A stretch of DNA of 35,025 nucleotides, from positions 1 through 35,025 of the forward strand of contig JACZJC010000028.1 of the NCBI GenBank assembly GCA_014860745.1, in the 5' to 3' direction. The notes under the pieces are model-generated. The model saw only the letters and a list, made by a program, of their open reading frames with translations, was not told where the DNA came from and did not search any database. How positions within the stretch are numbered: position 1 is the first letter of the stretch; every line of letters starts with the position of its first letter. Position numbers and translations under genes: made by a program. Shown here piece by piece: positions 7,358-27,998 of the stretch. The DNA is from Anaerolineales bacterium. GTDB taxonomy: Bacteria > Chloroflexota > Anaerolineae > Anaerolineales > Villigracilaceae.

Positions 7358-7433
7358 AGCGAAAACCGATGTTCGATATTTGGAACCCGATGATCGAAAG
7401 ACGATTTATCGAATATCGTTCTTTGGAGGCTTC

Positions 7434-9590
<2,157 letters not shown>

Positions 9591-9599
9591 GAGCGCAAG

Positions 9600-11123: not shown

Positions 11124-11154
11124 TGCGTACATTAGAGATCACGAAGTACGCATT
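11122..11154. repeat. Hairpin overlapping the nuoM stop codon
   Basis: A perfect 9-bp inverted repeat, AATGCGTAC (11122-11130) and GTACGCATT (11146-11154), has a 15-nt loop. The left arm starts inside the nuoM stop codon, and the right arm ends about 10 nt before the ribosome site of the next gene. No T-tract follows, so an RNA processing or translation-tuning element is likelier than a terminator. Confidence 0.5.
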
Positions 11155-11172
11155 GCGCAATACGAGGTGATT

Positions 11173-12687: not shown

Positions 12688-14135
12688 TGTTTACCCCAAT
12701 CGTTTTCGCCTCCATCCTCCCTGAAATTTTGATTCTCGTTTTGGGAATCCTGATTCTCATCTTCGAACCGTTTTGGAAGGAAGACCAGCGCCGTAATGCA
12801 GGCTGGCTTACTGCGGGCGGACTTTTTACTGCGATCATCATCAGCCTGTTGTTTGGCCAGCCCGGCGAACCGACAGCTGTGCTGGGCGGGATGATCCGTT
12901 TCGACTGGCTGGGCTTCTTCTTTAAATTATTGTTCATGTTCGCGGGCGCAGCAACGGCTCTGCTTTTGATGGATCACGAAACGGCGGGACGCCGCGGTGA
13001 GGCCTATCTTCTGCTCCTCGCTTCGCTTCTTGGCATGAACCTGATGGCTGTTTCCTCAGACCTGGTCATGCTCTACCTGGCTATTGAGACTGCGTCGATT
13101 CCGCTTTATATTCTTGCCGGCTTTTTGCTCGCAGACGAACGCTCCACGGAAGCAGGTTTCAAGTATCTATTGTTTGGGACGCTGGCATCCACCATCATGC
13201 TGTATGGTTTCTCCCTGATCTTTGGTTTTTCCGGCACGACGGATATATATAAAATTGCTGAAATATTTTCAACGGGAAGTATTTCACCGCTGCTTGGGTT
13301 TGGCTTGTTGGCTCTGGTTATCATCGGTCTTGGATTTAAGATGGCGATCGTTCCGTTCCACTTTTGGGCGCCGGACGTATATCAGGGTTCCCCGACTCCT
13401 GTGGCAGGTTTTCTATCGACGGCCTCCAAGGCAGCGGGCTTTGCTGTGATCGTACGCTTATTCTTTGTTGGATTACCTGAATTCTCCAGCTCCTGGACTC
13501 TCGTTCTTGCTGCTCTTTCCGCAATTACTATGACGGTAGGCAACCTGCTTGCGCTCCCGCAAACCAATATCAAGCGCCTGCTTGCGTATTCTTCCGTTGC
13601 ACACGCGGGATATGCTTTGATCGGCGTGGTGGCATTCAGTCAGCTTGGCGCGGCGAGTGTGGTTTTCTACCTCGCGGCATATATCGCGACTAACCTGCTG
13701 GCCTTTGGAATCGTGATGGCGTTCAGCCGCGTGACCGGCCTGGAAGAGATCACCGATTACGTGGGCTTGAGCCGGCGTAATCCTTTTATGGCGTTGATGA
13801 TGCTGGCGGCCTTTTTGTCACTCGCGGGCATGCCTCCCTTTGGCGGTTTTGTTGCGAAAATTTTTGTCTTTGCGGCGGGTGTGCAGGCGAATTACACCTG
13901 GCTGGTTGTGGTGGGCATCATCAACTCGATCATTGGGGTGTACTATTATCTTAATGTTATGAAGTTCGTGTATCTGTACCGGATGCCGGGCGAAGATGAG
14001 GAAAAGCACCCCGTCCCGTTGACCAGTTCGTATTCGATTGCGCTGGTTGTTTTGGTAATTGGTGTGATTTTGGTCGGAACTGTGTTTGCGCCGTTCTTTA
14101 GCTGGTCGGATGCAGGCGCGTTGAATTTGTTCTAG
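12687..14135 (+). CDS. nuoN: NADH-quinone oxidoreductase subunit N
   Basis: The 482-aa proton-pumping subunit next to NuoK has the conserved residues: a TM5 glutamate (LAIETASIPLYIL), a TM7 lysine (GLGFKMAIVPFHFWAPDVY), a TM8 lysine (STASKAAGF) and a TM12 lysine (GFVAKIFVF), the last being lysine rather than glutamate as usual in NuoN. The start overlaps the previous stop (TAATG) and has GGGAGGTG upstream. It is the last gene of the complex I cluster; no terminator with a T-tract follows, only a 6-bp hairpin and the regulatory region of the atp genes. Confidence 0.96.
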   Translation: MFTPIVFASILPEILILVLGILILIFEPFWKEDQRRNAGWLTAGGLFTAIIISLLFGQPGEPTAVLGGMIRFDWLGFFFKLLFMFAGAATALLLMDHETAGRRGEAYLLLLASLLGMNLMAVSSDLVMLYLAIETASIPLYILAGFLLADERSTEAGFKYLLFGTLASTIMLYGFSLIFGFSGTTDIYKIAEIFSTGSISPLLGFGLLALVIIGLGFKMAIVPFHFWAPDVYQGSPTPVAGFLSTASKAAGFAVIVRLFFVGLPEFSSSWTLVLAALSAITMTVGNLLALPQTNIKRLLAYSSVAHAGYALIGVVAFSQLGAASVVFYLAAYIATNLLAFGIVMAFSRVTGLEEITDYVGLSRRNPFMALMMLAAFLSLAGMPPFGGFVAKIFVFAAGVQANYTWLVVVGIINSIIGVYYYLNVMKFVYLYRMPGEDEEKHPVPLTSSYSIALVVLVIGVILVGTVFAPFFSWSDAGALNLF

Positions 14136-14264: not shown

Positions 14265-14293
14265 TTGACGGCCTTTGACCGTTCAGTTATAAT
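14265..14293 (+). promoter_or_regulatory. Promoter of the Fo gene cluster
   Basis: TTGACG (14265-14270) and a perfect TATAAT (14288-14293) are 17 nt apart, the best promoter match in the window. The expected start site, about 7 nt after the -10, is at or next to the ATG of atpI at 14302, so the transcript would be leaderless or nearly so. Confidence 0.75.
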
Positions 14294-14301: not shown

Positions 14302-14583
14302 ATGGCACAATCTGACCGAGAGCAAAATCGTCGAAATATGGTAAACACCCTGTTGATCGTGGTGGTTGGACAGGTGGGATGTTTGACCCTTGCTGTGATC
14401 CTGGCTTCGGTGTTCGGCGGGTTGTGGCTTGACAATATGTTCGGGACAAAACCGATGTTTACCCTGGTTTTGTTGTTTGCTGGAATTCCTCTTTCGGTAA
14501 TTCTGATGCTGTACGTCTCGCGGAGAGCGCTGGCGCGGTTGAAGGAAAAATACGAGACCGGAGAGAAAGAAAATACTGCTTAG
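14302..14583 (+). CDS. atpI: AtpI/AtpZ-family Fo assembly protein
   Basis: The 93-aa protein has a charged N-terminus, two membrane helices (about residues 14-40 and 48-68) and a basic C-terminus. This is the pattern of AtpZ/AtpI proteins, which are encoded at the head of F-type operons and help assemble the c-ring. The ATG at 14302 has no ribosome site and lies where transcription should begin, which points to leaderless initiation. A later in-frame ATG at 14338 is the alternative start. Its stop overlaps the ribosome site of atpB. Confidence 0.75.
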   Translation: MAQSDREQNRRNMVNTLLIVVVGQVGCLTLAVILASVFGGLWLDNMFGTKPMFTLVLLFAGIPLSVILMLYVSRRALARLKEKYETGEKENTA

Positions 14584-14592
14584 GAGACGGAC

Positions 14593-15606
14593 TTGGAGAC
14601 CCCAAAACGTACCCCCTGGCGGCGCTGGATTGTTCTGGTGTTGATGATCGCTGGCTTTATTTTGGGCGGGATTTTTGTACCTGTTCAACCCGAGATCGTT
14701 GTTGCCGCTGAAAAATTGATCGAAGAGCCGATTGCCGAAAACTTTCTCGGCCTTGGCCCGCTGTATTTGGTGAACACACTCCCAACATTGGCGGTGACGC
14801 TTGTCCTGCTGGTTGTGATTGCGTTTGCTACAAACCGCTCTTTGAAGAAGAGCCAACAGACCGACATGGTTCCTCGGGGGATTGGCAACCTGATGGAAGC
14901 CATCCTTGAGATGTTGTATAACCTGACGGAAGGTTCGGCCGGGCCGAAATATGCTCGGATGATCTTCCCCTGGTTTGCGACGATCATGGTCTATGTGTTG
15001 TTTGCAAACCTGCTCAAGTTGATTCCCGGTTTTGAGTCGGTGGGTGTGTTGCATCATGCGCATGGCGAGGGGCATACAATTGCGGAACTCGGCGGCGGTT
15101 GGGCCAATCTGCTGCCCGAGAAAGTGGAGGAAGGCGGTTATGTTCTTGCGCCGTTCTTCCGCGGCATTTCTGTGGATTTGAACTTTACGGTGTCGCTGGC
15201 GATCATCGCGGTTGTAATGATCCAGGTGGTCGGCTTCCGGGCGCAGGGACTTGGCTATTTGAGCAAGTTCTTCAATACCCGCCGCATGTTCAAGGTCCCG
15301 TTCTTTGGCGCGATGGACTTTCTGGTTGGCCTGCTGGAGTTGATCTCTGAAATTTCGAAGATCCTCTCGTTCGCCTTCCGTCTGTTCGGCAATATGTTCG
15401 CAGGTATCGTGCTGGTCGCCATTGTTGCAGGTCTGCTTGGCAAGATATCCATTCTGCCCGCGATGGTGATGATGTTTGAGTTGTTCGTTGGCATCATTCA
15501 GGCGTTCGTGTTCGGTATGTTGACCATGGTGTTTATGGCGCAAGCCACGCAGGGTCATGGTGAAGAACACGCTGAAGAGCATGCTGTATCCGCACATGAA
15601 ATTTAA
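14593..15606 (+). CDS. atpB: F-type ATP synthase subunit a
   Basis: The 337-aa protein is the proton-channel subunit of Fo. The essential arginine is R263 in AFRLFGNMFAG, and the last helix has Q303 (GIIQAFVFGML), the usual partner position. The C-terminal tail is rich in His and Glu (HGEEHAEEHAVSAHEI). It is longer than the E. coli protein because of an N-terminal extension and a periplasmic loop. The TTG at 14593 is used as start because TAGGAG lies 6 nt upstream; no better ATG precedes the first helix. It sits between atpI and the c subunit, as in standard F-type operons. Confidence 0.93.
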   Translation: METPKRTPWRRWIVLVLMIAGFILGGIFVPVQPEIVVAAEKLIEEPIAENFLGLGPLYLVNTLPTLAVTLVLLVVIAFATNRSLKKSQQTDMVPRGIGNLMEAILEMLYNLTEGSAGPKYARMIFPWFATIMVYVLFANLLKLIPGFESVGVLHHAHGEGHTIAELGGGWANLLPEKVEEGGYVLAPFFRGISVDLNFTVSLAIIAVVMIQVVGFRAQGLGYLSKFFNTRRMFKVPFFGAMDFLVGLLELISEISKILSFAFRLFGNMFAGIVLVAIVAGLLGKISILPAMVMMFELFVGIIQAFVFGMLTMVFMAQATQGHGEEHAEEHAVSAHEI

Positions 15607-15638
15607 ATTATAAGGAAAACCCTAAGGAGGCTTGTACT

Positions 15639-15878
15639 ATGGATGGAAATATTTTAGATGCGATGCGTTATGTCGGCGCAGGCTTGGCAATGATCGGGGC
15701 GGCTGGTGCGGGTGTTGGAATCGGCTTGAGTGTGCAGGGTGCGTTGACGGGCATGGCCCGCAACCCCGATACCTATGGTAACCTTTTGACCAACATGATC
15801 CTTGGCATTGCGTTCTCAGAGGCCATCGCGATCTATTGTCTGGTGATTGCGTTCCTGATGCTCTTCAAAGTAGTTTAA
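15639..15878 (+). CDS. atpE: F-type ATP synthase subunit c
   Basis: The 79-aa proteolipid has two helices joined by the polar loop ARNPD. The ion-binding carboxylate is the glutamate in FSEAIAIY of helix 2. Helix 1 reads GAGVGIG where sodium-binding rings have a glutamine, and the residues after the glutamate are AI instead of ST, so the ring should carry protons. A very strong ribosome site (AAGGAGG) fits the need for many copies per complex. Confidence 0.95.
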   Translation: MDGNILDAMRYVGAGLAMIGAAGAGVGIGLSVQGALTGMARNPDTYGNLLTNMILGIAFSEAIAIYCLVIAFLMLFKVV

Positions 15879-15898
15879 TCCAATAGGAGCATTGAAAC

Positions 15899-16633
15899 AT
15901 GGAAGCTCTTGGAATTAATCTCGGTCTGCTCATCGTCCAGATCATAGCGTTCATCATTGTGTTTCTTACGTTGAACGCCTGGGTCTACAAGCCCATGCTG
16001 GACATGATGGAGACCCGTAAATCAAAAATTGCGCAGGGTCTGGAAGATGCCCGCATCGCCGCAGAAGCCCGCGCGGATGCCGAAAAGGAATCCGCCAAGA
16101 TTTTGGCAAACGCACAGGTGGAAGCGAGCAAGGTCGTTCGTGAGGCTACGGAGCGGGCCGCCGATGCCGTAAAGGATGTTAAAGCTTCCGCCGAATCGGA
16201 GGCTGCAAAAGCCCGCGAGACTGCCATTGCTGAGGCTGAATTGGAACGCAACCGCATTCTCGGCGACTTGCGCGGCCAGGTTGCCGCTCTGGCAATAGCC
16301 GCCGCCAATAAACTGGTTGGTGAGGCGTTGGATGAAAAGAAACAGCACGCTCTGCTGGATGAATTTTTCTCTGGCGTGAAATCCGGCAAGGTTGTGATTT
16401 TGGATGACGCGGATTTCAAGGGCGACTCTGCTGAAATTACCAGCGCCCTGCCGTTGACCAAGGATGAGGAAGCAACAGTCAGGAAGGACGTGCTTTCAAA
16501 GGTTGGGGCCGCAAATGTAAGTTTCCGGGTCGACCCGTCGATTTTGGGAGGTCTCGTCATCAAAGTGGGGGACAAGGTGATGGATGGATCCGTCTCCGGC
16601 AGGCTTGAAGGTCTGCGCCAGAATTTGAAGTAA
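15899..16633 (+). CDS. atpF: Fused F-type ATP synthase b and delta C-terminal stator protein
   Basis: The 244-aa protein begins as a complete b subunit: membrane helix at about 9-30, a long Ala/Glu-rich coiled coil at about 35-125 and the typical b end (ALAIAAANKLVGEALDE, then LLDEFFSGV) up to about 160. It then continues into the C-terminal domain of delta at about 176-243, recognisable by EITSALPLTKDEE and DPSILGGLVIKVGDKVMDGS. The N-terminal helical bundle of delta, which normally grips the alpha subunits of F1, has no visible counterpart. Fusions of b and delta are known in mycobacteria but keep the whole delta. No alpha, gamma, beta or epsilon gene follows; two terminators do. The b-delta junction is inferred by eye from remembered sequences. 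Confidence 0.85.
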   Translation: MEALGINLGLLIVQIIAFIIVFLTLNAWVYKPMLDMMETRKSKIAQGLEDARIAAEARADAEKESAKILANAQVEASKVVREATERAADAVKDVKASAESEAAKARETAIAEAELERNRILGDLRGQVAALAIAAANKLVGEALDEKKQHALLDEFFSGVKSGKVVILDDADFKGDSAEITSALPLTKDEEATVRKDVLSKVGAANVSFRVDPSILGGLVIKVGDKVMDGSVSGRLEGLRQNLK

Positions 16634-16640
16634 ATTCCGC

Positions 16641-16680
16641 AAGAGGACCCTTGATTATCAGGGTCCTCTTTATTATTTAA
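16641..16680 (+). terminator. Intrinsic terminator ending the Fo cluster
   Basis: A perfect 11-bp stem (16641-16651 with 16660-16670) encloses an 8-nt loop and is followed by TATTATTT. It lies 8 nt after the b-delta stop codon, where atpA would normally begin. Confidence 0.9.
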
Positions 16681-16687
16681 TCTTTTT

Positions 16688-16717
16688 GATTGCCCGAAGG
16701 TTCGGGCGATCCTTTTT
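16688..16717 (+). terminator. Second, tandem terminator after the Fo cluster
   Basis: An 11-bp stem with one T-G pair (16688-16698 with 16701-16711) and a 2-nt apex is followed by CTTTTT. Together with the first hairpin it makes read-through from the F-type genes into the A/V-type operon unlikely. Confidence 0.82.
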
Positions 16718-16760
16718 AAATGTGAATAGGAATTTTTGCACAATATCGCGATTTCCACCC

Positions 16761-16789
16761 TTGATTGTCATGTATTTATCCTGTACAAT
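16761..16789 (+). promoter_or_regulatory. Promoter of the A/V-type ATPase operon
   Basis: TTGATT (16761-16766) and TACAAT (16784-16789) are 17 nt apart. Transcription would start near 16796 and give a leader of about 39 nt before ntpH. The -10 TACAAT and the following TTGCGGA resemble the nuoA promoter (TACAATTTGCGAA). Confidence 0.65.
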
Positions 16790-16834
16790 TGCGGACATTA
16801 AAATCCTGGCAGTACTGAGTGAGGTGAAATCGTT

Positions 16835-17146
16835 ATGAACGAGAAGCACATCCAGCAAGTACTTGAGATTGAAAAGCAGGCACAGGAAATACAGGATAGT
16901 GCAAGGCGCGAAGCGCAGGAGATTCCTGTGAAAGCGGAGCAGGAAGCGCAGGCATTGATCGCCAAGGCCAAGGCCGACGCTCATGAAGAAGTGCGCAAAA
17001 TGATCGCGAGCGCACAGTCAAACGATGCCTCCGATCAAGTTGTGGAGAATGCGGCATCCAGAAACAGCGAATTCGAAGCTTTAGCCAGGAAAAACTTCGA
17101 TAAGGCGGTTGCCTTTGTTTTGGAACGCGTCATCGGCAGGGCTTAA
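16835..17146 (+). CDS. ntpH: A/V-type ATPase peripheral-stalk subunit H/G
   Basis: The 103-aa protein is almost entirely charged heptad-like helix with repeated Ala-Lys-Glu blocks, as in the coiled-coil stalk subunit that pairs with subunit E. It has no membrane segment. It is the first gene of the operon, in the place this subunit usually takes, with GAGGTG 8 nt before the ATG. Identity rests on composition, size and position rather than on catalytic motifs. Confidence 0.78.
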   Translation: MNEKHIQQVLEIEKQAQEIQDSARREAQEIPVKAEQEAQALIAKAKADAHEEVRKMIASAQSNDASDQVVENAASRNSEFEALARKNFDKAVAFVLERVIGRA

Positions 17147-17149
17147 CCC

Positions 17150-18235
17150 ATGGCGAGCGGCGTTTCCGGCTATGCGGCAATCAGCACGCGGGTGCGGGCT
17201 ATGTATTCCGATTTGCTTGCGCCTCAAGAGATGACCCGCCTGGGCGATTCCCCCGATCTCCCTGCCCTTGTCAGCTCTTTGAAAAGCACGCCTTACGGAA
17301 AATACCTTTCCGGACTCAAAGACACTGATATGACGCCGCGCCGCGTCATTTTACAGATCAGGAATAGGCTGGCAGACTCGTACTCCAGCGTGGTTCAGCA
17401 GGCACCGGAGCAGACGCGCCCCCTGATAAAGCAACTCTTTCGATATTTTGAAGTGGGAAATCTCAAAGCCGTATTACGTAGTATTCAAACAGTCTCATCC
17501 TGGAATTCGGATATCGCCGCGTGGGACCGCGTGCGCGAGGTTTTATTTCCATTCGGCACCTTTGCTTCCATCCCTGCACAGGCAATGGTGGAATCAGGGA
17601 GCGTCGCTTCGGCGGTGGACCTGCTTCACGGTTCCCCCTACGAGGCGACTATGTCCTTTGCGATGAAGCGTTTCTCCGCTGAGCAGAATCTCTTTCCGCT
17701 GGAAGTGGCGTTGGATTTGGCTTATTGGCGGCACCTGTGGGGCGAAGTCAAGACTCTCAAAGGCAAAGACCGCGAGATGGGCGGAAAGTTGATCGGCTCC
17801 CTGCTTGACCTGAATAACCTGATGTGGGCGATCCGCTACAGGATTTACCACAACCTTTCGGAAGAGGAATTGATCAATTACACCCTGCCGTTCGGCTACC
17901 GTGTGCGGGATGAAGATGTGCGCGCCATTGCGGCAGGCGCGGATATAGCCTCCATTGTGTCGCGTATCTACCCGAATATTCCTGATGTAAACGCGCTTCT
18001 TGACCATCCCCAATCTGGTTTGCCCAAACTGGAGCATTTGCTCAAGCAGCAGGTGATGCGACAATGCGTCTCTGCGTTCATTGGTTACCCGTTCCACATT
18101 GGGCTTCCGCTGGCGTTCTTGTTGCTCAGCGATTTTGAAATCCAGGACCTGGTTGTCTTGATCGAGGCAAAATCATCCAAACTCAAAGATGAAGAGTTTC
18201 GTCCCCTGTTATTGAAAACGACTTTGATACAGTAA
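17150..18235 (+). CDS. ntpC: A/V-type ATPase subunit C
   Basis: The 361-aa soluble, mostly helical protein corresponds to the funnel-shaped C (d-like) subunit that couples the central shaft to the K ring. N-terminal features such as GYAAISTRVRAMYSDLL and later Trp-rich segments (MWAIRYRIYHNLSEEEL) fit the family, and the length is normal. It starts 4 nt after the ntpH stop. A palindrome-containing gap of 65 nt separates it from ntpI. Confidence 0.85.
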   Translation: MASGVSGYAAISTRVRAMYSDLLAPQEMTRLGDSPDLPALVSSLKSTPYGKYLSGLKDTDMTPRRVILQIRNRLADSYSSVVQQAPEQTRPLIKQLFRYFEVGNLKAVLRSIQTVSSWNSDIAAWDRVREVLFPFGTFASIPAQAMVESGSVASAVDLLHGSPYEATMSFAMKRFSAEQNLFPLEVALDLAYWRHLWGEVKTLKGKDREMGGKLIGSLLDLNNLMWAIRYRIYHNLSEEELINYTLPFGYRVRDEDVRAIAAGADIASIVSRIYPNIPDVNALLDHPQSGLPKLEHLLKQQVMRQCVSAFIGYPFHIGLPLAFLLLSDFEIQDLVVLIEAKSSKLKDEEFRPLLLKTTLIQ

Positions 18236-18245
18236 TACTCCCGGC

Positions 18246-18263
18246 CCTCTCCCATTGGGGAGG
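18246..18263. repeat. Short palindrome between ntpC and ntpI
   Basis: CCTCTCC (18246-18252) pairs with GGGGAGG (18257-18263) around CATT, with one T-G pair. It is related in sequence to the palindrome at 1180-1227. No T-tract follows, so the operon probably continues through it. Confidence 0.45.
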
Positions 18264-18300
18264 AGACCCATGCATTTATCACTTTAATATTGGAGTTGCC

Positions 18301-20307
18301 ATGTTATTTCCGAAGCAGATGTCCGAAGTTGAGCTGATCATGCCTTCCAAAGACCTTGTGGCGGTGACAAGGACATTGAGCGGTTATGGGGTATTTCACC
18401 AGGTTGACAGCGCATATTTAGGGTTGGAAAGCCTGGGTCCAAATGCATGGCAGGATAAAGCCGGGGCTTATTCCGCTCTCGAACGCCGTATTCAGGCCAT
18501 CATGCAGAATGTCGGGCTTCAGGAGGAATATCCCGCCAAAGCCGAGATCGAATCGGTGGTTGACATGGACGCCGTCCGCCCGGAGGTGGATCGGATCGAG
18601 GAGGAAGTCAAAGAGGTCAGCGACCAATTATCGGGTGAAAGGAAGCGACTTGAATTGTTGGAAAGTCAGCTTCGCCAGTTGGAGCCGATTGCCGATGTCG
18701 ACGTGGAAGTGGGGATGTTGAAAAAATCATCTTTTATGCACTCCATATTGGGCGTCGTTCCATCAGCTAATATCAGCAGGTTGAGAACCAGCCTATTGAG
18801 AGTTCCGCATGTGTTTTTCATCCTGCGCGAGGATGCTCAAAAACCTGTCGTTTGGATTTTGGGTCCCAGGAGTAATTCGGATGTACTGGAGCGCGCCGCA
18901 AAAAGCGCATATCTTAACCCGTTGAGCCTGCCTGATGAATTTAGCGGCACTCCCGAACAGATCACGGCGATGTTGAGAAAGGAAATCGAATCTGCGAAAC
19001 AGAAGATTTCAGTATTCGAAGCAGACCTTGCCAGACTGGGCGGCTCTTATAAAAGCGAATTGCAGAAATTACTTTGGGATGTTCACATCAGCCGCGTTAT
19101 GGCGGATGCGATCGTTCGCTTTGGGCAATTGCGCCATACCTATGTTGTGGTGGGTTGGGTGCCGACCGCGGATTTGGAGGACCTGACCTCAAGACTCAAG
19201 GAAGCCTCCCGCGAGATCTTGATCGAAACGATGGCGACAAGCCGTTCGGGGCATCATGCGCAGGTGCCTGTGGCGTTGACGCAAAACAAGTGGCTCAAGC
19301 CGATTCAAATGCTGGTGGGCACGTATGGACATCCCAGCTATGGTGAACTCGACCCGACGTTGTTGATGGCTTTCACGTTCCCGCTTTTATACGGCGCGAT
19401 GTTCGGTGATCTCGGGCAGGGGTTGGTCATGCTGGTGTTGGGCGTTTTGATGCACAACAAGATCATTATGAAGAGCATGCAAAGTCTGGGCTTGCTCATT
19501 GCTTACTGCGGGTTCTCAGCGGCGGTGTTTGGATATTTGTACGGAAGCATCTTCGGGTTCGAAGGACATCTCATCGAGGAATACCTTCACTTTCACTTTG
19601 AACCGAGTTGGTTGAGCCCCATGCATGATATTTTGAGCGTGCTAAGCATTGCCATTGACGCAGGTATTGTGATCCTGACGCTGGGCTTTTTGCTCGGCAT
19701 GTTCAATAATATCCGTTCGAGGGATTGGGCACACCTGCTCTTTGGACATTCAGGGGTTGCTGCTTTTCTCTTTTACATATGTTTCCTTGCAGTGGTATTC
19801 GGTGGGTTCTTTGGGTCCACAGCGCTTGCCCCTAAGATCGCTCTTGCCATATATTCACTGCCGCTTCCATTCTCAACTCTGATGATTGTATTTGGCGTGC
19901 TTGTCATGTTGAGTGGTTTCCTCCGAAACATGGTGGAGGGGCATACATTGATCGAGGGCAAGGGTGTTGGCGGCTTCGCGATGTTCCTTGTCCAATCCGT
20001 CATGGATCTGGTGGAGACTCTCATCAGCATGCTCAGCAATACGCTTTCGTTCATCCGCGTGGGAGCGTTCGCGGTGGCACACGGGGGATTGAGCCTCGCA
20101 ATTTTTGCACTGGCGGGCGAGGAACCCGATGCTGGATTTTGGATTACGATCGTCATTGGCAATCTCTTTATCATCGGCTTCGAAGGTTTGATTGTGGGCA
20201 TTCAAACCATGCGCTTGCATTATTACGAAATTCTGGGCAAGTTCTTCCACGGTGGCGGCATGCAGTTTGAACCTCTGAATTTAAAATCCGCGCAAGAGAA
20301 GACATAG
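18301..20307 (+). CDS. ntpI: A/V-type ATPase membrane subunit I
   Basis: The 668-aa protein has the two-part build of subunit I (a). The N-terminal half (about 1-345) is soluble and rich in coiled coil and binds the peripheral stalks; the C-terminal half has about eight membrane helices and forms the proton half-channels. The essential arginine is R586 in LSFIRVGAFAVAHGGLS, and a later helix has the conserved glutamate of GFEGLIVGIQTMRLHYYE. Its presence shows that this operon does not rely on the F-type a subunit encoded upstream. The ATG at 18301 has GGAG upstream. Confidence 0.95.
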   Translation: MLFPKQMSEVELIMPSKDLVAVTRTLSGYGVFHQVDSAYLGLESLGPNAWQDKAGAYSALERRIQAIMQNVGLQEEYPAKAEIESVVDMDAVRPEVDRIEEEVKEVSDQLSGERKRLELLESQLRQLEPIADVDVEVGMLKKSSFMHSILGVVPSANISRLRTSLLRVPHVFFILREDAQKPVVWILGPRSNSDVLERAAKSAYLNPLSLPDEFSGTPEQITAMLRKEIESAKQKISVFEADLARLGGSYKSELQKLLWDVHISRVMADAIVRFGQLRHTYVVVGWVPTADLEDLTSRLKEASREILIETMATSRSGHHAQVPVALTQNKWLKPIQMLVGTYGHPSYGELDPTLLMAFTFPLLYGAMFGDLGQGLVMLVLGVLMHNKIIMKSMQSLGLLIAYCGFSAAVFGYLYGSIFGFEGHLIEEYLHFHFEPSWLSPMHDILSVLSIAIDAGIVILTLGFLLGMFNNIRSRDWAHLLFGHSGVAAFLFYICFLAVVFGGFFGSTALAPKIALAIYSLPLPFSTLMIVFGVLVMLSGFLRNMVEGHTLIEGKGVGGFAMFLVQSVMDLVETLISMLSNTLSFIRVGAFAVAHGGLSLAIFALAGEEPDAGFWITIVIGNLFIIGFEGLIVGIQTMRLHYYEILGKFFHGGGMQFEPLNLKSAQEKT

Positions 20308-20426
20308 TCTGAGGCATCGCGAGATTCATGCCGCCTGGCAGTGCAACAAAAGCATGTTGTGGACTGCGTTATATCGGTTTGTAAAGCTCAAATAAAAACT
20401 TCCATCTAATTAAAAGGAGATAAACA
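20308..20426. other. Gap between ntpI and ntpK with an imperfect hairpin
   Basis: The 119-nt gap holds an imperfect hairpin at 20338-20367: GCAGT pairs with ACTGC and GCAACA with TGTTGT, with a GG bulge and a 6-nt loop. It is followed by an A-rich leader and a strong ribosome site (AAAAGGAGA) for ntpK. Gaps and hairpins before proteolipid genes often help raise their expression or protect the RNA; that role is inferred here. Confidence 0.4.
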
Positions 20427-20858
20427 ATGTTTTTAGTATTCGCTGTTCTGGTTGGTTTGATCCCGGTAATTCCCGCAGTGGTTTTTTTGCTTCAAAACGG
20501 AAAGACCCATCCCGCTCAGGCGGTGTCGCGCATTGTCGGCGGGTTTACCGGATTTAATTTCCTTGTCGGCTTGTTCGCGGCTGGGATTGCGATGGTCTGG
20601 CTCGCCTCCCCGACATCCGTGCTGGCGGCTGGCGCGGCCCAGGAAGGCGGTGTGGTGGATCAATACGCCTCGCTTGCAGCAGCTCTTTCCACAGGCCTGG
20701 CGTGCATTGGCGCAGGTATTGCGGTCGGAAATTCCGGCGCGGCGGCGGTGGGCGCTACAGCTGAAAAACCCGAGTCGTTTGGCCGTGCGCTGATCTTCGT
20801 AGGTCTCTCGGAAGGTATTGCCATTTACGGCTTGATCATTTCCTTCCTCATTCTTTAA
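20427..20858 (+). CDS. ntpK: A/V-type ATPase proteolipid subunit K
   Basis: The 143-aa protein has four predicted hydrophobic segments. Only the second hairpin (about 80-143) is a normal c-like pair: helix GAGIAVGNSGAAAVG, loop AEKPE and helix with E129 in LSEGIAIYG. The first 70 residues form a hairpin without a carboxylate and with no clear c-like pattern; it could instead be a cleaved signal region, because VLAAGAAQ near 65-72 resembles a peptidase site. The sodium-ligand glutamine of helix 1 is absent (valine), so proton use is expected. A strong ribosome site fits its high copy number. Confidence 0.9.
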   Translation: MFLVFAVLVGLIPVIPAVVFLLQNGKTHPAQAVSRIVGGFTGFNFLVGLFAAGIAMVWLASPTSVLAAGAAQEGGVVDQYASLAAALSTGLACIGAGIAVGNSGAAAVGATAEKPESFGRALIFVGLSEGIAIYGLIISFLIL

Positions 20859-20863
20859 AGCAG

Positions 20864-21169
20864 ATGAAGATCCTTGTTATCGGTCATCCTGATGCAGTGC
20901 TTGGTTTTTCGCTGGCAGGCGTGGGCGGCAGAGTCGCCACCACTGTCGACGAGGTAAATCAGGCATTGGATGAAGCGCAAGCCAGCAAGGATATTGGCAT
21001 TGTGCTTGTCACGCAGGATGTGGCTGGGTTAATTCCAGCCCGCATGGAACATCTTAACTTGCGGAGCACTGTCCCACTGGTAGTCGAGATTCCCTCTCGT
21101 GGAGGCGTCCCGGAAGGTCAGGCTTCGCTCGGTGATATCGTTCTGCGGGCGATTGGAATCAAATTATAA
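20864..21169 (+). CDS. ntpF: A/V-type ATPase subunit F
   Basis: The 101-aa protein has the small Rossmann-like fold pattern of subunit F: an N-terminal strand (MKILVIGHPDAVLGFSLAG), a middle strand IGIVLVTQDVA and a C-terminal helix. Subunit F binds subunit D in the central shaft and regulates rotation. It follows ntpK after 5 nt, so the two are translated together. Confidence 0.88.
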   Translation: MKILVIGHPDAVLGFSLAGVGGRVATTVDEVNQALDEAQASKDIGIVLVTQDVAGLIPARMEHLNLRSTVPLVVEIPSRGGVPEGQASLGDIVLRAIGIKL

Positions 21170-21208
21170 GCTTTCCTTCGGATATCCACTTCAAGGAAAA
21201 GGATTGGA

Positions 21209-21829
21209 TTGAGCGCTATGAAATCTGTAGATGAAGATATTGAATTGCTTGCGCGCGCCATCATGGTGGAAGCGCGGGAGGAAGCCGAACAGTTGCACAC
21301 CGAGGCAAAAGAGAAGGCTGAAGCCATTTGGAAGCGTGCCCAGGAACAGGCGGAGTCCGAACGAAAGGTCATCCTTGTCCGGGCAAAAGAGGATGCGGAT
21401 CGCCTTCGCAGCCAGGCATCTGCCACTACCCAGCTTAAGGGGCGTTCCCTGCAATTGGACGAACGCGAGAAAATATTAAACGGTGTGTTTGATGAGGTCC
21501 GCAAACAGTTGGATGCTGTGAAAAAACGCCCGGACTATGGCGAAATTGCAGCTATGTTGGCGCGTGAGGCGTTGTCTCAATTACAGGCGACCGAAGCCGA
21601 AGTGAGTGTGGATGAAACGACGCAAAAGGTGTTGAAACTGGATGATCTTTCGAAAGAATTGAATGGCAAATTTAACTTCGGCGAAAAACTTGAGGAAGGC
21701 ACAGGAGTTGTAGTGAGCGCGGCCAGCGGCAAACTGCATTACGATAACACGCTTGAAACCCGCCTAAGCCGCCTGCAAGGCTCGCTGCGTTCCTCCGTTT
21801 ATAAGCTGCTGATGGGAGAAAAGGTATGA
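21209..21829 (+). CDS. ntpE: A/V-type ATPase peripheral-stalk subunit E
   Basis: The 206-aa protein has a long charged coiled coil in its first 110 residues and a globular C-terminal domain, as in subunit E, which pairs with subunit H to form the peripheral stalk. The TTG at 21209 is preferred because AAGGA lies 5 nt upstream; the ATG at 21218 would be 14 nt away. The two differ by three residues. The stop overlaps the ntpA start (ATGA). Confidence 0.87.
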   Translation: MSAMKSVDEDIELLARAIMVEAREEAEQLHTEAKEKAEAIWKRAQEQAESERKVILVRAKEDADRLRSQASATTQLKGRSLQLDEREKILNGVFDEVRKQLDAVKKRPDYGEIAAMLAREALSQLQATEAEVSVDETTQKVLKLDDLSKELNGKFNFGEKLEEGTGVVVSAASGKLHYDNTLETRLSRLQGSLRSSVYKLLMGEKV

Positions 21830-23595
21830 GCGATCAAGTTGGAACGATAACCTGGATCAGCGGACCGGTAGTACGCGCCCGTGGTTCCCGCCATGTAGGC
21901 ATGCTTGAGCTCGTCCAGGTGGGCGAAGACCGGCTGGTGGGCGAGGTGATCGGACTCAAAGGCGATCAGATGACAATCCAGGTCTACGAAGAAACAGCAG
22001 GCATGCAAACCGGCGCGCCGGTCTTTGGCACGGGTTTGCCGCTTTCTGTGGAGTTGGGGCCGGGCTTGATCCAAAGCATTTACGATGGTGTGCAGCGTCC
22101 GCTTCCGTTAATTGAAGCGGCGATGGGTTCCTTCATCAACCGCGGCGCGCATTTCGATTCGATCAACCGCGAAAAGAAATGGAAGTTCACACCCAAAGTC
22201 AAAGTAGGCGATGCAGTCAAAGGCGGCGCGATCCTCGGTGTTGTAATGGAAACTGAAACACTCGAGCATCGCGTTATGCTTAACCCTGACGACTCCGGCA
22301 CGATCACCTGGGTTGCGCCTGTGGGCGAATATACAGTTGCTGACACTATTGCCAAGCTGAAGATGGGCAAGGAAGAAAAGACAATTACCATGCTTCAGCG
22401 CTGGCCTGTTCGCCGCGCACGGCCATTTACCAATCGGCGTCCCGCGAACATTCCATTGATTACTGGTCAAAGAATTCTCGACACATTTTTCCCTGTTGCA
22501 AAAGGCGGCGCGGCGGGTATCCCCGGTCCGTTTGGATCGGGCAAGACCGTTACCCAGCATAGCATCGCAAAATGGGCGGATGCTGAGATCATCGTCTACA
22601 TCGGATGCGGCGAACGCGGCAACGAAATGACCGAAGTACTGCAGGAATTCCCGCATCTTGTCGACCCGAGAACTGGTCGTCCGTTAATGGAGCGTACTGT
22701 GCTGATAGCCAATACGTCCAACATGCCGGTGGCCGCGCGTGAAGCCAGCATCTATACCGGCATCACCATCGCGGAATATTACCGCGACATGGGCTATCAC
22801 GTTGCACTGATGGCGGATTCAACATCCCGCTGGGCCGAAGCGTTGCGCGAAGTCTCCGGTCGTCTCGAAGAAATGCCGGCTGAGGAAGGTTACCCTGCCT
22901 ATCTTGCTGGCCGTCTCGCCGAGTTTTACGAACGCGCTGGCTATGTTAATAATTTGAACGACACTCAGGGTTCGGTGTCCATTGTGGGCGCGGTTTCTCC
23001 TCCCGGCGGTGACTTTTCGGAACCTGTGACCCAGCACACCAAACGCTTCATTCGCTGTTTCTGGGCACTGGATAAATCGCTTGCATCTGCCCGTCACTTC
23101 CCGGCCATTAACTGGCTGGATAGTTACAGCGAATATCTCGAAGACGTAGCCGGGTGGTGGCGCGAAAAGACCGGCAAAGATTGGCTAACCATGCGCAACC
23201 GCGCAATGGAATTGTTGAGTGAAGAGAGCCGACTTTCTCAGATCGTAAAGTTGGTGGGTCCGGATGCGCTTCCATACACCGAGCGGATGGTGCTTGAAAC
23301 CACGCGCCTCATCCGTGAAGGTCTTTTGCAGCAGAATGCAACTGAGACCGTGGATGCATTCTCGTCAGTGGAAAAGCAGATCCGCATGCTCGAACTCGTG
23401 TTGTACTTCCACGAACGAGGTATGGCAATTGTCAAGCGCGGCGCGCCGATCAACCTGATCCATGACTTGCCCGTGGTCGATACAATCATTCGTGCAAAAT
23501 CCACCGTCACGAACGAAGAACTGCACAAATTCGACGACATTCAAAAACAAATTGACCAGCAAATGGGTCAATTGGATGCGGAGTACAGATCATGA
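21826..23595 (+). CDS. ntpA: A/V-type ATPase catalytic subunit A
   Basis: The 589-aa catalytic subunit has the Walker A motif GPFGSGKT at 234-241 and the catalytic glutamate in GERGNEM (E263). A non-homologous insert typical of subunit A lies between the N-terminal barrel and the nucleotide-binding domain (about 110-190). The C-terminal helical domain is complete and the length is normal. It overlaps ntpE and ntpB by 4 nt each, supporting matched translation of the head subunits. It may make or hydrolyse ATP; the sequence does not show the direction. Confidence 0.97.
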
Positions 23596-25019
23596 GCGAA
23601 GTAACAGTACAAGGCGGTCAGGAAGTTGTCGGCGTTGCGCGCATCGAGGGTCCGATCCTCGTTGTCGAAGGCGGGACGAATGTCAGTTATGACGAGGTCG
23701 TTGAAATTCAGGATTCCCGCGGTCAACTTCGCCGTGGGCGTGTGCTGGAAGTAGGTGAAGGCTACGCAGTGATCCAGGCGTTTGCCGGGTCCACGGGTCT
23801 CTCGATTGACGGAACCCGCGTCCGCTTTTTGGGAACCACTCTCCACATTCCAGTTGCGGAGGAAATGCTGGGACGTATTTTCGATGGTTTGGGCAACCCC
23901 ATCGACGGGGGGCCTGAACCGCTCACAGACCATTATGCCGATGTCAACGGGCAACCGATCAACCCAACAGCGCGTATTTATCCGCGCGATTATATTCAAA
24001 CCGGTATCTCCACCATCGACGGCGTGAATACGCTCCTGCGCGGACAAAAACTCCCATTGTTTTCCGGCGCTGGTATGCCGCATGATCAACTCGCAGCACA
24101 AATTGTGCGCCAGGCAACCTTGGGCAAACTGGCCGGGGCTCCGCAGACTGAAGGCGAAGAATTTGCCATCGTGTTTGCTGCGATGGGCGTGAAGAACGAC
24201 GTGGCAGAATATTTCCGCCGCTCGTTCACCGAAAGCGGAGCACTGACTCGTGTGGCGATGTTCCTCAACCTTGCGGATGATCCCCCGGTTGAGCGTATTG
24301 TCACCCCGCGCGCAGCCTTGACCCTTGCGGAGTATCTTGCCTACGAACGCGAAATGCACGTTTTGGTTGTCCTCACAGATATGACCAACTACGGCGAAGC
24401 CCTGCGTCAGATTTCAAACGTCCGTGGTGAAGTGCCAAGCCGTAAAGGTTACCCCGGTTACTTGTACAGCGACCTTGCTTCTATGTATGAACGCACGGGG
24501 CGCATCCGCACAAGCAAAGGATCGATTACTCAAATCCCGATCCTCACCATGCCCAACGATGATATTACTCACCCGATGCCTGACCTGACCGGCTACATCA
24601 CTGAAGGCCAGATCGTGTTGGGGCGCGAACTTAACTTTGCTGGTATCTATCCCCCCGTCGCGGTGCTGCCGAGCCTCTCGCGCCTGATGAAGGATGGTAT
24701 CGGTAAGAACCGCACACGCGACGATCATCCGCGTTGGGGCGCACAGTTATATGCGGCTTATGCCAGGACCCAGGATGTGCGCGCGCTTGCATCCGTTATC
24801 GGTGAGGAAGAGCTCAGCGACGTGGACCAGAAATATCTTAAGTTTGGACGCGCGTTCGAACGGGAATTCGTCAATCAGAGCTTCACCGAAAACCGCACCA
24901 TCGAGCGAACTCTTGAGATCGGCTGGAAACTTCTTTCCATGCTTCCGAAGAAGGAACTCACTCGCGTGACGCTCGATGAGATCGCCCAATATTACAAAGG
25001 CGACGATGCCTCAAGTTAA
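23592..25019 (+). CDS. ntpB: A/V-type ATPase regulatory subunit B
   Basis: The 475-aa non-catalytic head subunit alternates with A in the hexamer. It lacks a Walker A motif ([13 protein letters not shown] in its place) and has the conserved [16 protein letters not shown] segment that supplies the arginine finger to the neighbouring catalytic site. Length and domain order are normal. It starts within the ntpA stop and overlaps ntpD by 14 nt. Confidence 0.97.
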
Positions 25020-25641
25020 TATCGCTCCCACCCGCACGAACCTGATTCGCCTCAAAAAGGATTTGCGATTTGCGAAAGAGGGATATGAGATCCTTGACCG
25101 TAAGCGCGAAGCCCTGACCGGCGAGCTCGTCCGTGTTGCAAAAGAAGCGGATACCCTTCAAAAGGAAGTCTGGGCATTGCTGGAAACCGCCTACAATGCG
25201 ATGGAAAAAGCGCGCCTTGTGATGGGCTCCGACCATGTTGAGTGGGCCTCGCTCGCGGTGGATAAAACGGTGGATGTGCACCTGCGCCTGCGCGGAGTCA
25301 TGGGTGTGGCACTTCCACAGATCGAAGCGCGAGGCGAACCACCCAGACTTCCCTACAGCCCCGGAGATACCTCTGCCGCCCTCGATGAAGCCAGCGATGC
25401 GTTCCGGGAGGTGTTATTGCGCATCCCGCAGCTTTCGATGCTCACTGCCGCTGTGTGGCGACTGGCCAATGAATTGCGCAAGACCCAGCGCCGCGTAAAT
25501 GCACTTCAACATATCTTCATTCCGCAGTATAAGCATCAGATCGAGTTCATCGTTAGCTCGTTGGAAGAACGCGAGCGCGAAGAGACCTTCCGTTTGAAAT
25601 GGCTGAAAACGAAGATGGCCAGGGCAAAAGCTGAAGGGTAA
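25006..25641 (+). CDS. ntpD: A/V-type ATPase central-shaft subunit D
   Basis: The 211-aa protein has the long antiparallel coiled coil of the rotor shaft, with the N-terminal signature [27 protein letters not shown] split over about residues 7-33 and a C-terminal helix ending in a basic tail. The ATG at 25006 is chosen because it begins the typical [10 protein letters not shown] sequence; the earlier in-frame start at 24976 would add only a 10-residue tail. It is the last A/V-type gene. No terminator follows, only a TGAAAATTTTCA palindrome at 25651-25662, so the next gene may be transcribed with it. Confidence 0.94.
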
Positions 25642-25684: not shown

Positions 25685-26335
25685 ATGAATATTGCTGTGC
25701 TGGGTACGGGACAGGTAGGTCAAACAATCGGCCACAAACTTGTGCAATTGGGCCACGATGTGATGATGGGTTCGCGGGAGGAAGCCAACCGGAAAGCGGT
25801 AGCCTGGGCCAAGGAAGAAAACCACAACGCCTTGTTTGGTACGTTCGCCAACGCGGCTGCATTCGGCGAGGTAATCTTCAATTGCACCCTGGGCTCTGCC
25901 TCGTTGGATGCGCTATATCTGGCAGGCGCCGGGAACTTGAAGGGAAAGATCCTGATCGACACATCAAATCCGCTCGATTACTCGGATGAAAAGCATTGGA
26001 AATTGACGATCTGCAACACCGATTCTCTCGGCGAACAGATCCAGCGCGCCTTTCCCGAAACGATGGTTGTAAAAACGCTTAATACGGTCTATTGCACAGT
26101 GATGGTGGACCCGGACAAACTTGTGGAACGGACCGATATCTTTGTCAGCGGCAACAGCGCCGAAGCCAAAGCCACTGTGACAAAGATCCTGCGCGATTGG
26201 TTCCATTGGAAACACATCGTCGACCTTGGTGATATCACCACATCGCGCGCTGTTGAAATGTACGCGCTCTTGTGGAGAAGCCTGCGCTTGGCTACCTCAT
26301 CACATCGTTTCAACATAAAAGTAGTGGCAACCTGA
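25685..26335 (+). CDS. NADP/F420-dependent oxidoreductase-like protein
   Basis: The 216-aa protein has an N-terminal Rossmann motif GTGQVGQTIG (7-16) and the SRE segment after strand 2 that often contacts the 2'-phosphate of NADP. Overall it resembles the coenzyme F420-dependent NADP oxidoreductase family, many bacterial members of which are of unknown substrate. It is soluble. GAGGTGA precedes the ATG. A terminator follows, so it ends a transcription unit that may begin with the A/V-type operon. Confidence 0.75.
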   Translation: MNIAVLGTGQVGQTIGHKLVQLGHDVMMGSREEANRKAVAWAKEENHNALFGTFANAAAFGEVIFNCTLGSASLDALYLAGAGNLKGKILIDTSNPLDYSDEKHWKLTICNTDSLGEQIQRAFPETMVVKTLNTVYCTVMVDPDKLVERTDIFVSGNSAEAKATVTKILRDWFHWKHIVDLGDITTSRAVEMYALLWRSLRLATSSHRFNIKVVAT

Positions 26336-26378: not shown

Positions 26379-26398
26379 CATCAAAATCCTCTTTTTTT
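26359..26398 (+). terminator. Intrinsic terminator before murE
   Basis: A perfect 11-bp stem (26359-26369 with 26381-26391) with an 11-nt loop is followed by seven T residues. It ends the oxidoreductase transcript 4 nt before the murE start region. Confidence 0.9.
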
Positions 26399-26402
26399 GT
26401 TA

Positions 26403-27998
26403 ATGCGTATGATAAACAATCCCACAACTTCACTCCGGAAGATTTTTCAAGACCTGCCGTTTCCTGCCCCGGCGAAAATTCCAGAAACCCAAATCTCGGG
26501 CATAGCGATCGACAGCCGCGCAGTAAAACCGGGCAGTCTTTTCGTTGCCATGAAGGGCGGAACGATGGACGGCCATGATTTCATTCGGAAAGCCATAGAG
26601 AATGGAGCGGCCGCAGTGGCGGGGGATCGGGAGTTCGATGAACTTCCGATCCCATACATCAAACTCGAGAACCCGCGTCAGGCCCTGACCTGGCTGGCTG
26701 CCTCGTTTCACAACTGGCCTGCCCGCAAACTGACAATGATCGGCGTCACCGGCACAGACGGCAAAACCACGACCAGCAATTTGATCTACAAAATACTCAT
26801 TGCCGCGGGGTTCAAGGCAGGGATGATCTCCACGGTCAATGCTGTCATTGGCGATACGGTGCTGGATACGGGATTCCACGTTACCACGCCGGATGCACAC
26901 GACGTGCAAAATTACCTGGCAAAGATGGTTGCCGCTGGCCTGACCCATGTCGTGCTGGAGACCACCTCCCATGGCTGGGCGCAATACCGTGTGGACGCTT
27001 GTGAATTTGATATTGGCGTTGTCACCAATATCACCCACGAGCATTTGGACCAGCATGGAAGTTATGAGAATTATCGCGCTGCCAAGGCAAGGTTATTTTC
27101 AAGCCTCGAGTGGACGAGAGAGAAGCCCCAGGGAAATCCGCGTTTGGGAGTGATCAACCGCGATGACGATAAGTCATTTGCCTTTCTCAATGACCATATC
27201 AAAGTAAACAAAGTCAACTATGGATTGGCGGAGGAGGCGGATGTACATGCGGAGGAAATTGAATATAGTTCTGCGGGAATAAAGTTTACTGCTGTCTCCG
27301 AAGATTTTCGTGTAGACATATTGAGCAATCTGGTTGGAGCTTATAACGTCTCGAACTGTCTCGCCGCGCTGACTGCCACCGTGTACGGCCTTGGCATCGA
27401 TCCCCAGGTTGCCGCGCAGGGTGTCGCCGCGTTGGAGGGCATCCCTGGACGTATGGAAACCATTTCGATGGGACAGAACTTCATTGCAGTTGTGGATTTT
27501 GCCCATACACCCAACGCCTTGAAAGTGGCCTTGGAGGCGGGCAGGAAAATGAGTCGGGGCCGCGTCATTTCTATTTTCGGGTCAGCAGGCCTGAGGGACA
27601 AAGAGAAGCGGCGCATGATGGCGGAGACATCCGCAGAGCTGGCAGATCTCACCGTCTTAACCGCTGAAGATCCCCGCACTGAGTCGCTGGACGGAATCCT
27701 CGAGGAGATGGCGGAGGGGGCGAGGTCGGAAGGCGGGCGGGGAGGCGAGACCTTGTGGCGTGTTCCAGACCGGGGGGAGGCTATCAAATTTGCTCTGCGC
27801 CTTGCAGTGGAGGGAGATATTGTTCTCTCTTGCGGCAAAGGGCATGAGCAGTCGATGTGTTTTGGTGGGACGGAATATCTTTGGGATGACCGTACCGCTA
27901 TGAAAGCGGCGCTTGCCGAGTTCCTGGGTGTGGACGGGCCTGCGATGCCCTACCTTCCTTCGCAGGATAAGAAGGAGGAGGAATGGTTAAAGGGATGA
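26403..27998 (+). CDS. murE: UDP-MurNAc-tripeptide synthetase (MurE-type Mur ligase)
   Basis: The 531-aa enzyme adds the third amino acid to the peptidoglycan stem peptide with ATP. It has the three Mur-ligase domains: UDP-binding N-terminus, central ATPase with GVTGTDGKTTT at about 114-124 and the carbamylated lysine at about K228 (NYRAAKARLF), and a C-terminal amino-acid-binding domain. The substrate motif, DNPR in diaminopimelate enzymes, reads EDPR at about 422-425, so the amino acid cannot be safely predicted; L-ornithine is known in Chloroflexus peptidoglycan. No ribosome site is seen; ATG 26403 or 26409 are both possible. A run of Gly/Arg/Glu-rich sequence after the motif (about 440-450) looks like a family insertion. 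No other mur gene is nearby. Confidence 0.88.
   Translation: MRMINNPTTSLRKIFQDLPFPAPAKIPETQISGIAIDSRAVKPGSLFVAMKGGTMDGHDFIRKAIENGAAAVAGDREFDELPIPYIKLENPRQALTWLAASFHNWPARKLTMIGVTGTDGKTTTSNLIYKILIAAGFKAGMISTVNAVIGDTVLDTGFHVTTPDAHDVQNYLAKMVAAGLTHVVLETTSHGWAQYRVDACEFDIGVVTNITHEHLDQHGSYENYRAAKARLFSSLEWTREKPQGNPRLGVINRDDDKSFAFLNDHIKVNKVNYGLAEEADVHAEEIEYSSAGIKFTAVSEDFRVDILSNLVGAYNVSNCLAALTATVYGLGIDPQVAAQGVAALEGIPGRMETISMGQNFIAVVDFAHTPNALKVALEAGRKMSRGRVISIFGSAGLRDKEKRRMMAETSAELADLTVLTAEDPRTESLDGILEEMAEGARSEGGRGGETLWRVPDRGEAIKFALRLAVEGDIVLSCGKGHEQSMCFGGTEYLWDDRTAMKAALAEFLGVDGPAMPYLPSQDKKEEEWLKG

Follow-up and report, generated by a model that had tools for sequence, protein, structure and literature searches.

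Introduction

The separation of Fo and F1 genes into two operons of one genome is known, for example, from Alphaproteobacteria and Nitrospirae, where the break falls between b and delta; the chloroflexi are listed as unsplit in the excerpted part of the survey describing these cases (PMC4154653). Here we analyse an Fo gene cluster of an F-type ATP synthase found in a stretch of 35,025 nucleotides from Anaerolineales bacterium (GenBank assembly GCA_014860745.1, contig JACZJC010000028.1, positions 1 to 35,025 of the forward strand; hereafter the window). The cluster resembles those split loci in having its F1 operon elsewhere in the same genome, and differs from them in that a remnant of delta lies on the Fo side, fused to b.

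N-ATPases, the alternate F1F0 enzymes, are described in excerpts of two papers as lacking delta and having an extended b similar to subunit E (PMC5706428; PMC11738941), with the gene order beta-epsilon-X-X-a-c-(b delta)-alpha-gamma (PMC11738941). In the Chloroflexota genus T78, 18 of 20 genomes carry the N-type enzyme only (PMC11738941), and since N-type and fused F-type enzymes thus occur in the same phylum, they must be distinguished.

A further relative is engineered. In Bacillus PS3 FoF1, deleting delta residues 2-104 and joining the remainder to alpha (deltaDeltaN-alpha) gave enzymes with up to three stalks and an H+/ATP ratio of 5.8, compared with 3.0; in the excerpted text the authors state that the N-terminal domain limits the stalk number to one, and raise the existence of natural multi-stalk enzymes, naming delta-alpha fusions of the Acidaminococcus type (PMC12229609). 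Both there (PS3 and Acidaminococcus fermentans) and here delta is cut down to its C-terminal domain (CTD), which is joined to alpha in their case and to b in ours.

Among solved structures, the 9itj series (released 2025-03-19), identified by its entry titles as the ATP synthase of Chloroflexus aurantiacus, contains three alpha, one gamma, two a, four b, ten c and two delta chains per entry (totals: a 36 in 18 entries, b 72 in 18, delta 12 in 6, alpha 18 in 6, gamma 6 in 6). These counts indicate two stalks on one F1. Its delta has 157 residues; in state 1 the model of one delta chain covers 147 of them, and in state 2 the models of both delta chains cover only 69-70, the CTD where a range is given. 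No relevant published account of the series was found in the literature searched. C. aurantiacus belongs to the same phylum as the window's host. Mycobacterial b-delta (7jg5 and 7njk series) likewise has b and delta in one chain, of 445 residues, which we take to hold the whole of delta. FliH and the A/V-type subunit E also combine a helical arm and a delta-CTD-like domain in one chain, and we know of no membrane helix of the subunit b type in either.

Results

The Fo cluster of the window and its flanking signals are made up as follows.

14265-14293, + strand: sigma-70-like promoter before atpI, TTGACG-17-TATAAT (11 of 12 consensus bases; pattern match only)
14302-14583, + strand: atpI (PF09527, 36.4 bits)
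14593-15606, + strand: atpB, Fo subunit a, 337 residues (PF00119, 143.8 bits; closest solved relative 9itj_T, E 5e-45)
15639-15878, + strand: atpE, Fo subunit c, 79 residues (PF00137, 63.8 bits)
15899-16633, + strand: b/delta, subunit b plus delta CTD, 244 residues (ATP-synt_B at residues 11-140, OSCP at 176-243)
16641-16670, + strand: terminator-like hairpin 1 (pattern match that folds)
16688-16711, + strand: terminator-like hairpin 2 (pattern match that folds)

Pfam and NCBIfam bear out the gene set and order atpI-a-c-b/delta (14302-16633). A reading of the sequence alone had described atpI, a, c and a b-delta fusion with no alpha, gamma, beta or epsilon gene; the annotation of the cluster agrees on every gene but the last, where the wording needs correction. 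The OSCP match in b/delta spans only positions 103-172 of the 172-position profile, and the gene is therefore better named b plus delta CTD (b-deltaCTD). At E <= 1 the genome gives no other OSCP match, and a single b gene exceeds the cut-off. With 244 instead of 445 residues and this partial OSCP match, a fusion of the mycobacterial type, which includes a complete delta, was rejected; the mycobacterial entries moreover include a second b chain, whereas one b gene was found here.

The part that is missing is the N-terminal domain of delta, which caps F1. A profile of this domain, built from 16 class sequences, matched all eight full-delta genomes (E <= 1.6e-16; G030, G007 and G001 contributed rows to it, the other five did not) and found the domain in none of 12 CTD-only genomes (best E 0.21). 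The AlphaFold model of b/delta (predicted local distance difference test, pLDDT, 80.7; predicted template modelling score, pTM, 0.47) presents one long helix (residues 8-140), a short helix and a delta-like CTD. Its best structural match is mycobacterial b-delta (Z 10.5, 86 residues, 2.3 A), and it also matches the E. coli delta CTD (Z 9.3, 70 residues, 2.1 A). Unlike FliH and subunit E, b/delta is by sequence similar first to b and delta. Chains of the 9itj series rank first among solved chains for a, b and delta (b and delta by profile) and for gamma, fifth for alpha and fourteenth for c. The Chloroflexus delta is shortened as well, but it is a separate protein that keeps part of the N-terminal region and belongs to a solved enzyme with two stalks by chain counts; the b-fused form described here is known from its genes.

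By eye, all delta states defined below retain the N-terminal helix of alpha, as does each aligned row long enough to include it (the rows of G086 and G078 are truncated). The helix therefore presumably still has a binding partner, for which deltaCTD is the candidate. deltaCTD would grip the alpha N-terminus as in canonical enzymes, and the finding of a single b gene suggests that the stalk would be a (b-deltaCTD) homodimer. In subunit c we read, by eye, S-E-A-I around the key Glu, with Ile at the Gln position of what we take to be the Na+ motif; the enzyme is probably H+-driven.

Of 15 promoter-like sites in the region (shuffles 9.4 +/- 3.0), the one before atpI scores best, and the two hairpins are among 22 terminator-like matches (shuffles 15.3 +/- 3.9). 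The strong promoter and tandem terminators of the sequence-only reading thus stand as pattern matches. Under a stricter test, a hairpin lies within 150 nucleotides 3' of b/delta in 31 of 68 fused relatives, against 0.6 expected from mononucleotide shuffles, and the other 37 fail it. From these predicted signals, atpI-a-c-b/delta looks like a closed Fo-plus-stator transcription unit.

The window, contig C49, belongs to a 4.32-Mb genome in 82 contigs (98.2% complete). Searching this genome for F1 genes, as that reading had proposed, gave a single gamma gene and a single F-type copy each of alpha and beta, together with epsilon, on another contig.

L008:8903-13399 (contig C18): F1 operon alpha-gamma-beta-epsilon, one copy (profile matches)

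An mreB gene follows (operon plus mreB, L008:8903-14413). Alpha and beta pass the atpA and atpD models (750 bits, cut-off 484; 782 bits, cut-off 463) and fail those of the alternate F1F0 enzymes (597 bits against 750.5; 574 against 752). Rho and the A/V subunits A and B account for the remaining PF00006 proteins of the genome. The genome therefore holds a, b, c, alpha, beta, gamma and epsilon of an FoF1 enzyme, with the CTD alone where both delta domains would be expected. With a single fitting F1, the Fo cluster has one obvious partner. Judged by gene content, it is very probable that the cluster and the C18 operon encode one F-type ATP synthase at two loci, the A/V-type operon next to the cluster being a separate, inserted machine. 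The Fo-plus-stator unit would be one half of this enzyme and the C18 F1 the other, and the proteins of the two loci would assemble.

The alpha gene (L008:8903-10567) encodes 554 residues, with the nucleotide-binding domain match split in two and extra residues after 307; in many relatives alpha has 501-521 residues. A longer alpha was rejected as a mark of the fused state, being mixed across states.

Having a b with a delta-like C-terminal end and no separate delta, the enzyme is N-ATPase-like at the stator. Its genes (I-a-c-b/delta and alpha-gamma-beta-epsilon at two loci) are arranged differently, its alpha and beta fall below the alternate-F1F0 cut-offs, and its partner is the sole F1 found in the genome. 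We rejected an N-ATPase on this order and these scores, by which the window's enzyme is not one.

The separation recurs in the family. In all eight members sampled, the window's genome included, Fo and F1 are apart: on different contigs in six, 53 kb apart in one and 832 kb apart in the single-contig genome G025. The order nuoL-M-M-N-atpI-a-c-b/delta is kept in all seven Fo loci fetched from family relatives, and Ddl and mreB flank alpha-gamma-beta-epsilon in both annotated family F1 loci (L043, L058). The sequence-only reading had named its own refuting condition, a complete F1 operon elsewhere in the genome that is regularly paired with this Fo; by that test this is a split locus, and a regular one, not the unusual F1-less Fo it had suspected. 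Of its two explanations, F1 encoded elsewhere is what the genome holds, and another partner or role becomes superfluous; its observation is confirmed and its interpretation partly supported.

We examined how delta and gamma are linked in a sample of 150 class genomes, the positions of both being transcribed by hand. The resulting table covers 121 genomes in 122 F-type rows (G067 twice); left out were three genomes without gamma, 18 with gamma or delta on the N-type side of our own cut between F-type and N-type gamma (E 1e-62; G147 and G054 among them) and eight without a delta row. One genome, G097 (family f43), has no delta row, and the delta matches listed end before the last rows. Of 66 full-delta genomes, 57 have delta no more than 8 kb from gamma; the other nine have the two on different contigs, and the three of these that could be checked (G026, G088, G107) have them at contig ends. 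In contrast, once two rows had been reassigned as separate open reading frames (ORFs), the 45 fused rows include no case of same-strand linkage: two are convergent about 4 kb off, eight lie on the same contig at 16.7 kb to 1.0 Mb, and 35 lie on other contigs, some of which may be broken assemblies. The four rows first labelled fused and linked are the two convergent f9 genomes plus G034 and G057, which have separate ORFs; two (G140, G051) of the three rows labelled separate and on another contig are short frames from fused families.

Loci were compared among the best 80 of at least 253 confirmed stretches retrieved with the b-deltaCTD profile; 69 of the 80 are fused. Among fused loci with at least 6 kb downstream (n = 48), alpha follows on the same strand in none and convergently in two. 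Three rows with alpha on the same strand came from a loose cut; by best hits, no fused locus has it on that strand.

Three states of delta, and the N-type besides, were distinguished with our own hidden Markov models on loci fetched from 57 genomes, picked to cover families. A separate b and full delta (state A) occurs in 19, b with a separate CTD-only delta ORF of 84-167 residues (state B) in eight, F-type b-deltaCTD fusion (state C) in 26, and the N-type in four; one state B genome also has an N-type copy. In seven of the eight state B genomes delta lies less than 2 kb from gamma (in G017 it is on a different contig, well inside it), indicating that the split is not a consequence of domain loss alone.

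A FastTree phylogeny of concatenated alpha, gamma and beta (57 taxa, 1275 columns) places most state C enzymes in one clade (support 0.998) and the rest, from f12 and f37, in a smaller clade (0.925), among state A; state B is scattered over several places, some weakly supported. G134 and G097 were placed in state C for the tree and the alpha alignment, though delta was seen in neither. From this tree, the N-terminal domain seems to have been lost more than once, and its loss can occur without fusion. We take CTD-only enzymes as a variant within the FoF1 type, for the F1 tree intersperses them with full-delta enzymes. In this one tree, fusion is associated with the split both in the main clade and in the smaller one, where the call is based on a single genome, G043 (in G039 delta is at a contig end).

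In a phylum sample of 121 genomes, most outside the class have a full-length delta match; G157 has a CTD-only one. Thirteen genomes of f56 and f66 present a milder form of the same loss, with a match from position 37-71 on and frames of 125-207 residues. In three loci with a separate CTD (L053, L054, L055), b and a delta ORF of 84-120 residues abut or overlap at stop and start; a small frame change there could give a fusion. G067 has two b-deltaCTD-like copies (C13, C14) and one gamma. In G054, the neighbour of a full delta is a gamma-like ORF of 386 residues (L114:3510-4667), whose own C-terminus (residues 316-382) gives a second delta-CTD-like match. A longer subunit a was rejected as a mark of the fused state, as lengths taken from the longest start overlap (A 241-361, B 293-358, C 228-544 residues).

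Discussion

What is ordinary in these results is a regular split locus next to an inserted A/V operon; what goes beyond it is that the main ATP synthase of a bacterial class seems to have lost its OSCP cap repeatedly, together with fusion to b and an operon split. We noticed no account of b-deltaCTD with a split Fo in Anaerolineae in the open-licence literature searched, and do not claim it to be unpublished. Several points weigh against reading the two loci as one such ATP synthase. The N-terminal domain could have diverged below the sensitivity of the profile or been replaced by something unrecognisable. H+ specificity is suggested by a c sequence read by eye against the Na+ motif as we take it, and the promoter and terminators of the Fo unit are predictions from sequence patterns. 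The window's own genome is in 82 contigs, and its Fo and F1 are located as lying on different ones, C49 and C18.

The number of stalks on this enzyme admits two readings. In one, to which we give somewhat less than an even chance, the enzyme resembles FliH or the V-ATPase subunit E at this point: a single (b-deltaCTD)2 stalk would attach through its two CTDs to the N-terminus of one alpha or of two, and the lost domain would simply be dispensable. The layout of b-deltaCTD is that of an E subunit, and a profile search finds the V-type E chains 4dt0 and 2dm9 over its residues 65-240; the model also matches FliH 5b0o (Z 6.8, 81 residues, 3.0 A) and the yeast V-ATPase (Z 6.5), scores that are low and partly an effect of the long helix. 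The same kind of b is found in N-ATPases, according to the excerpted text (PMC5706428). However, the nearest solved a, b and shortened delta belong to an enzyme that has two stalks by chain counts, and the same deletion permitted several stalks in the engineered enzyme. A single stalk, if correct, would show that an F-type ATP synthase is able to keep F1 in place with the OSCP cap gone, which is presumably also the case for N-ATPases.

In the other reading, which extends the two-locus explanation and does not deny it, the cap loss frees the threefold axis atop F1, and one F1 would carry two or three (b-deltaCTD)2 stalks, every one of them with a separate subunit a. This would raise the H+ used per ATP and allow ATP synthesis at low proton motive force, and a separate Fo unit would permit a and b-deltaCTD to be made in excess of F1. 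We regard it as a serious candidate that nevertheless falls short of an even chance. Absence or shortening of the OSCP N-terminal domain, the feature expected of two- and three-stalk enzymes, is found here, and the end of the engineered deletion that gave extra stalks coincides with the start of our match at profile position 103 (PMC12229609). The nearest solved a, b and delta chains come from the Chloroflexus enzyme, with two stalks by chain counts. Loss of the domain seems to have occurred in several lineages and is associated with the operon split. On the other hand, each homodimeric stalk would have two deltaCTDs, an arrangement present in neither the engineered nor the Chloroflexus enzyme, and solved chains from outside the Chloroflexus series are closer for alpha and c. 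Seven of eight separate-CTD genomes keep delta beside gamma. The excerpted report, moreover, joined deltaCTD to alpha for fear that a truncated delta would not hold, whereas no such join exists here, and it describes few three-stalk particles (PMC12229609). Since we know of no solved FoF1 with two deltaCTDs on a homodimeric stalk, we consider a single stalk about as likely as several.

The H+/ATP ratio is commonly ascribed to the size of the c-ring. If it is true that loss of the delta domain sets the number of stalks, and hence of a, gearing could be read from genomes; natural cases are numerous in the Anaerolineae, from what seems to be more than one origin, alongside full-delta relatives, and b-deltaCTD fusions would be a second candidate route to natural multi-stalk enzymes. 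Tentatively, then, and with more doubt than confidence, one may picture a large Anaerolineae clade with natural multi-stalk FoF1, in which cap loss, joining of deltaCTD to b, an Fo split off for dosage, a gear for low proton motive force and a two-NuoM complex I go together.

An orphan Fo, serving as an H+ leak or channel or with a non-F1 partner such as the adjoining A/V head, is suggested only by the neighbourhood and by the lack of F1 genes in the cluster. We consider it very improbable and rejected it: a single-copy F1 operon is present on C18, the A/V operon brings its own I and K, and it follows b/delta in just four of 60 fused loci, not in the other 56, and lies apart from Fo in G080 and G131. 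An assembly artefact, in which Fo was misjoined to the A/V operon (the sequence-only reading had asked about a join at 16.6-16.8 kb) or severed from F1, has a negligible chance, since the identical junction is found in four records (L122, L123, L124 and L171, the last on a 3.1-Mb contig) and Fo and F1 are also separate in single-contig G025.

Neighbouring genes

Downstream of the Fo cluster, the complete A/V-type operon of the sequence-only reading was found, with nine subunit genes including I and K, and two genes beyond it.

16835-25641, + strand: A/V-type ATPase operon, nine subunit genes (profile matches)
16835-17146, + strand: A/V subunit G/H-like (1.3e-4, below the Pfam cut-off)
17150-18235, + strand: A/V subunit C
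18301-20307, + strand: A/V subunit I
20427-20858, + strand: A/V subunit K
20864-21169, + strand: A/V subunit F
21209-21829, + strand: A/V subunit E
21826-23595, + strand: A/V subunit A
23592-25019, + strand: A/V subunit B
24976-25641, + strand: A/V subunit D
25685-26335, + strand: F420_oxidored-like protein, companion of the A/V operon (PF03807, 49 bits)
26397-27998, + strand: Mur ligase, MurE-like, start possibly a few codons later (PF08245, PF02875, PF01225)

The operon is an insertion behind b/delta and a neighbour only, its patchy adjacency being no sign of joint function. In five of the seven fetched family Fo loci murE lies directly 3' of b/delta. Among fused loci of the best-80 list with at least 2 kb downstream (n = 60), 38 have murE no more than 2.5 kb away, four have A/V subunit C no more than 1.5 kb away and 18 have neither; an insertion seen in four of these 60 is not an assembly join. 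Those four are the loci that share the window's junction. The oxidoreductase is present in all of them, and murE lies beyond it in both that are long enough to show it. The oxidoreductase is found at the same place in L203 too, not in L202. The terminators were considered as a marker of the insertion and rejected, since they are also present in relatives without it. In L171, b/delta, one NuoM, V_B and V_D are fragmented, probably by uncorrected assembly indels.

PF01992 (V-type subunit C) is present in 20 of the 150 class genomes and was not found in the three other same-genus genomes sampled. G131 has the A/V operon-oxidoreductase-murE block on a different contig from Fo, while G080 has an A/V operon, away from Fo, without oxidoreductase or murE beside it. 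Compared with L122, the window's genes are 79% (A/V A), 85% (A/V B) and 84% (b/delta) identical. Compared with G131, identity is 90% for A/V A and 93% for A/V B but 68% for b/delta, 46% for a and 66% for nuoN, with nuoL at 80%, nuoM at 77% and A/V E and G at only 70%. This mismatch in relatedness between A/V and Fo genes, seen in pairwise identities, hints at transfer of the operon between lineages.

Upstream, the cluster is preceded by genes of complex I.

4780-14135, + strand: nuoA, H, J, K, L, M, M2 and N, complex I membrane arm (NCBIfam)

Membrane parts of complex I and of the ATP synthase thus share one locus, and the complex I cluster contains the membrane arm only. Both NuoM proteins exceed the NDH_I_M cut-off. 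Complexes with two NuoM are associated with extra pumping. In fused loci, nuoN lies 5' of Fo in 50 of the 52 with at least 4.5 kb upstream, and two NuoM genes are present in all 45 that cover nuoL to nuoN. The best NuoD match lies on a different contig, C29; two more NuoD-like proteins (C21 and C79, frames of 584-592 residues) probably belong to other complex-I-like or hydrogenase complexes.

Finally, Fo and F1 are convergent neighbours in L065, L066, L160 and L162, which may represent a stage of the split brought about by inversion; the order in L160 and L162 is b/delta followed by mreB-epsilon-beta-gamma-alpha on the opposite strand.

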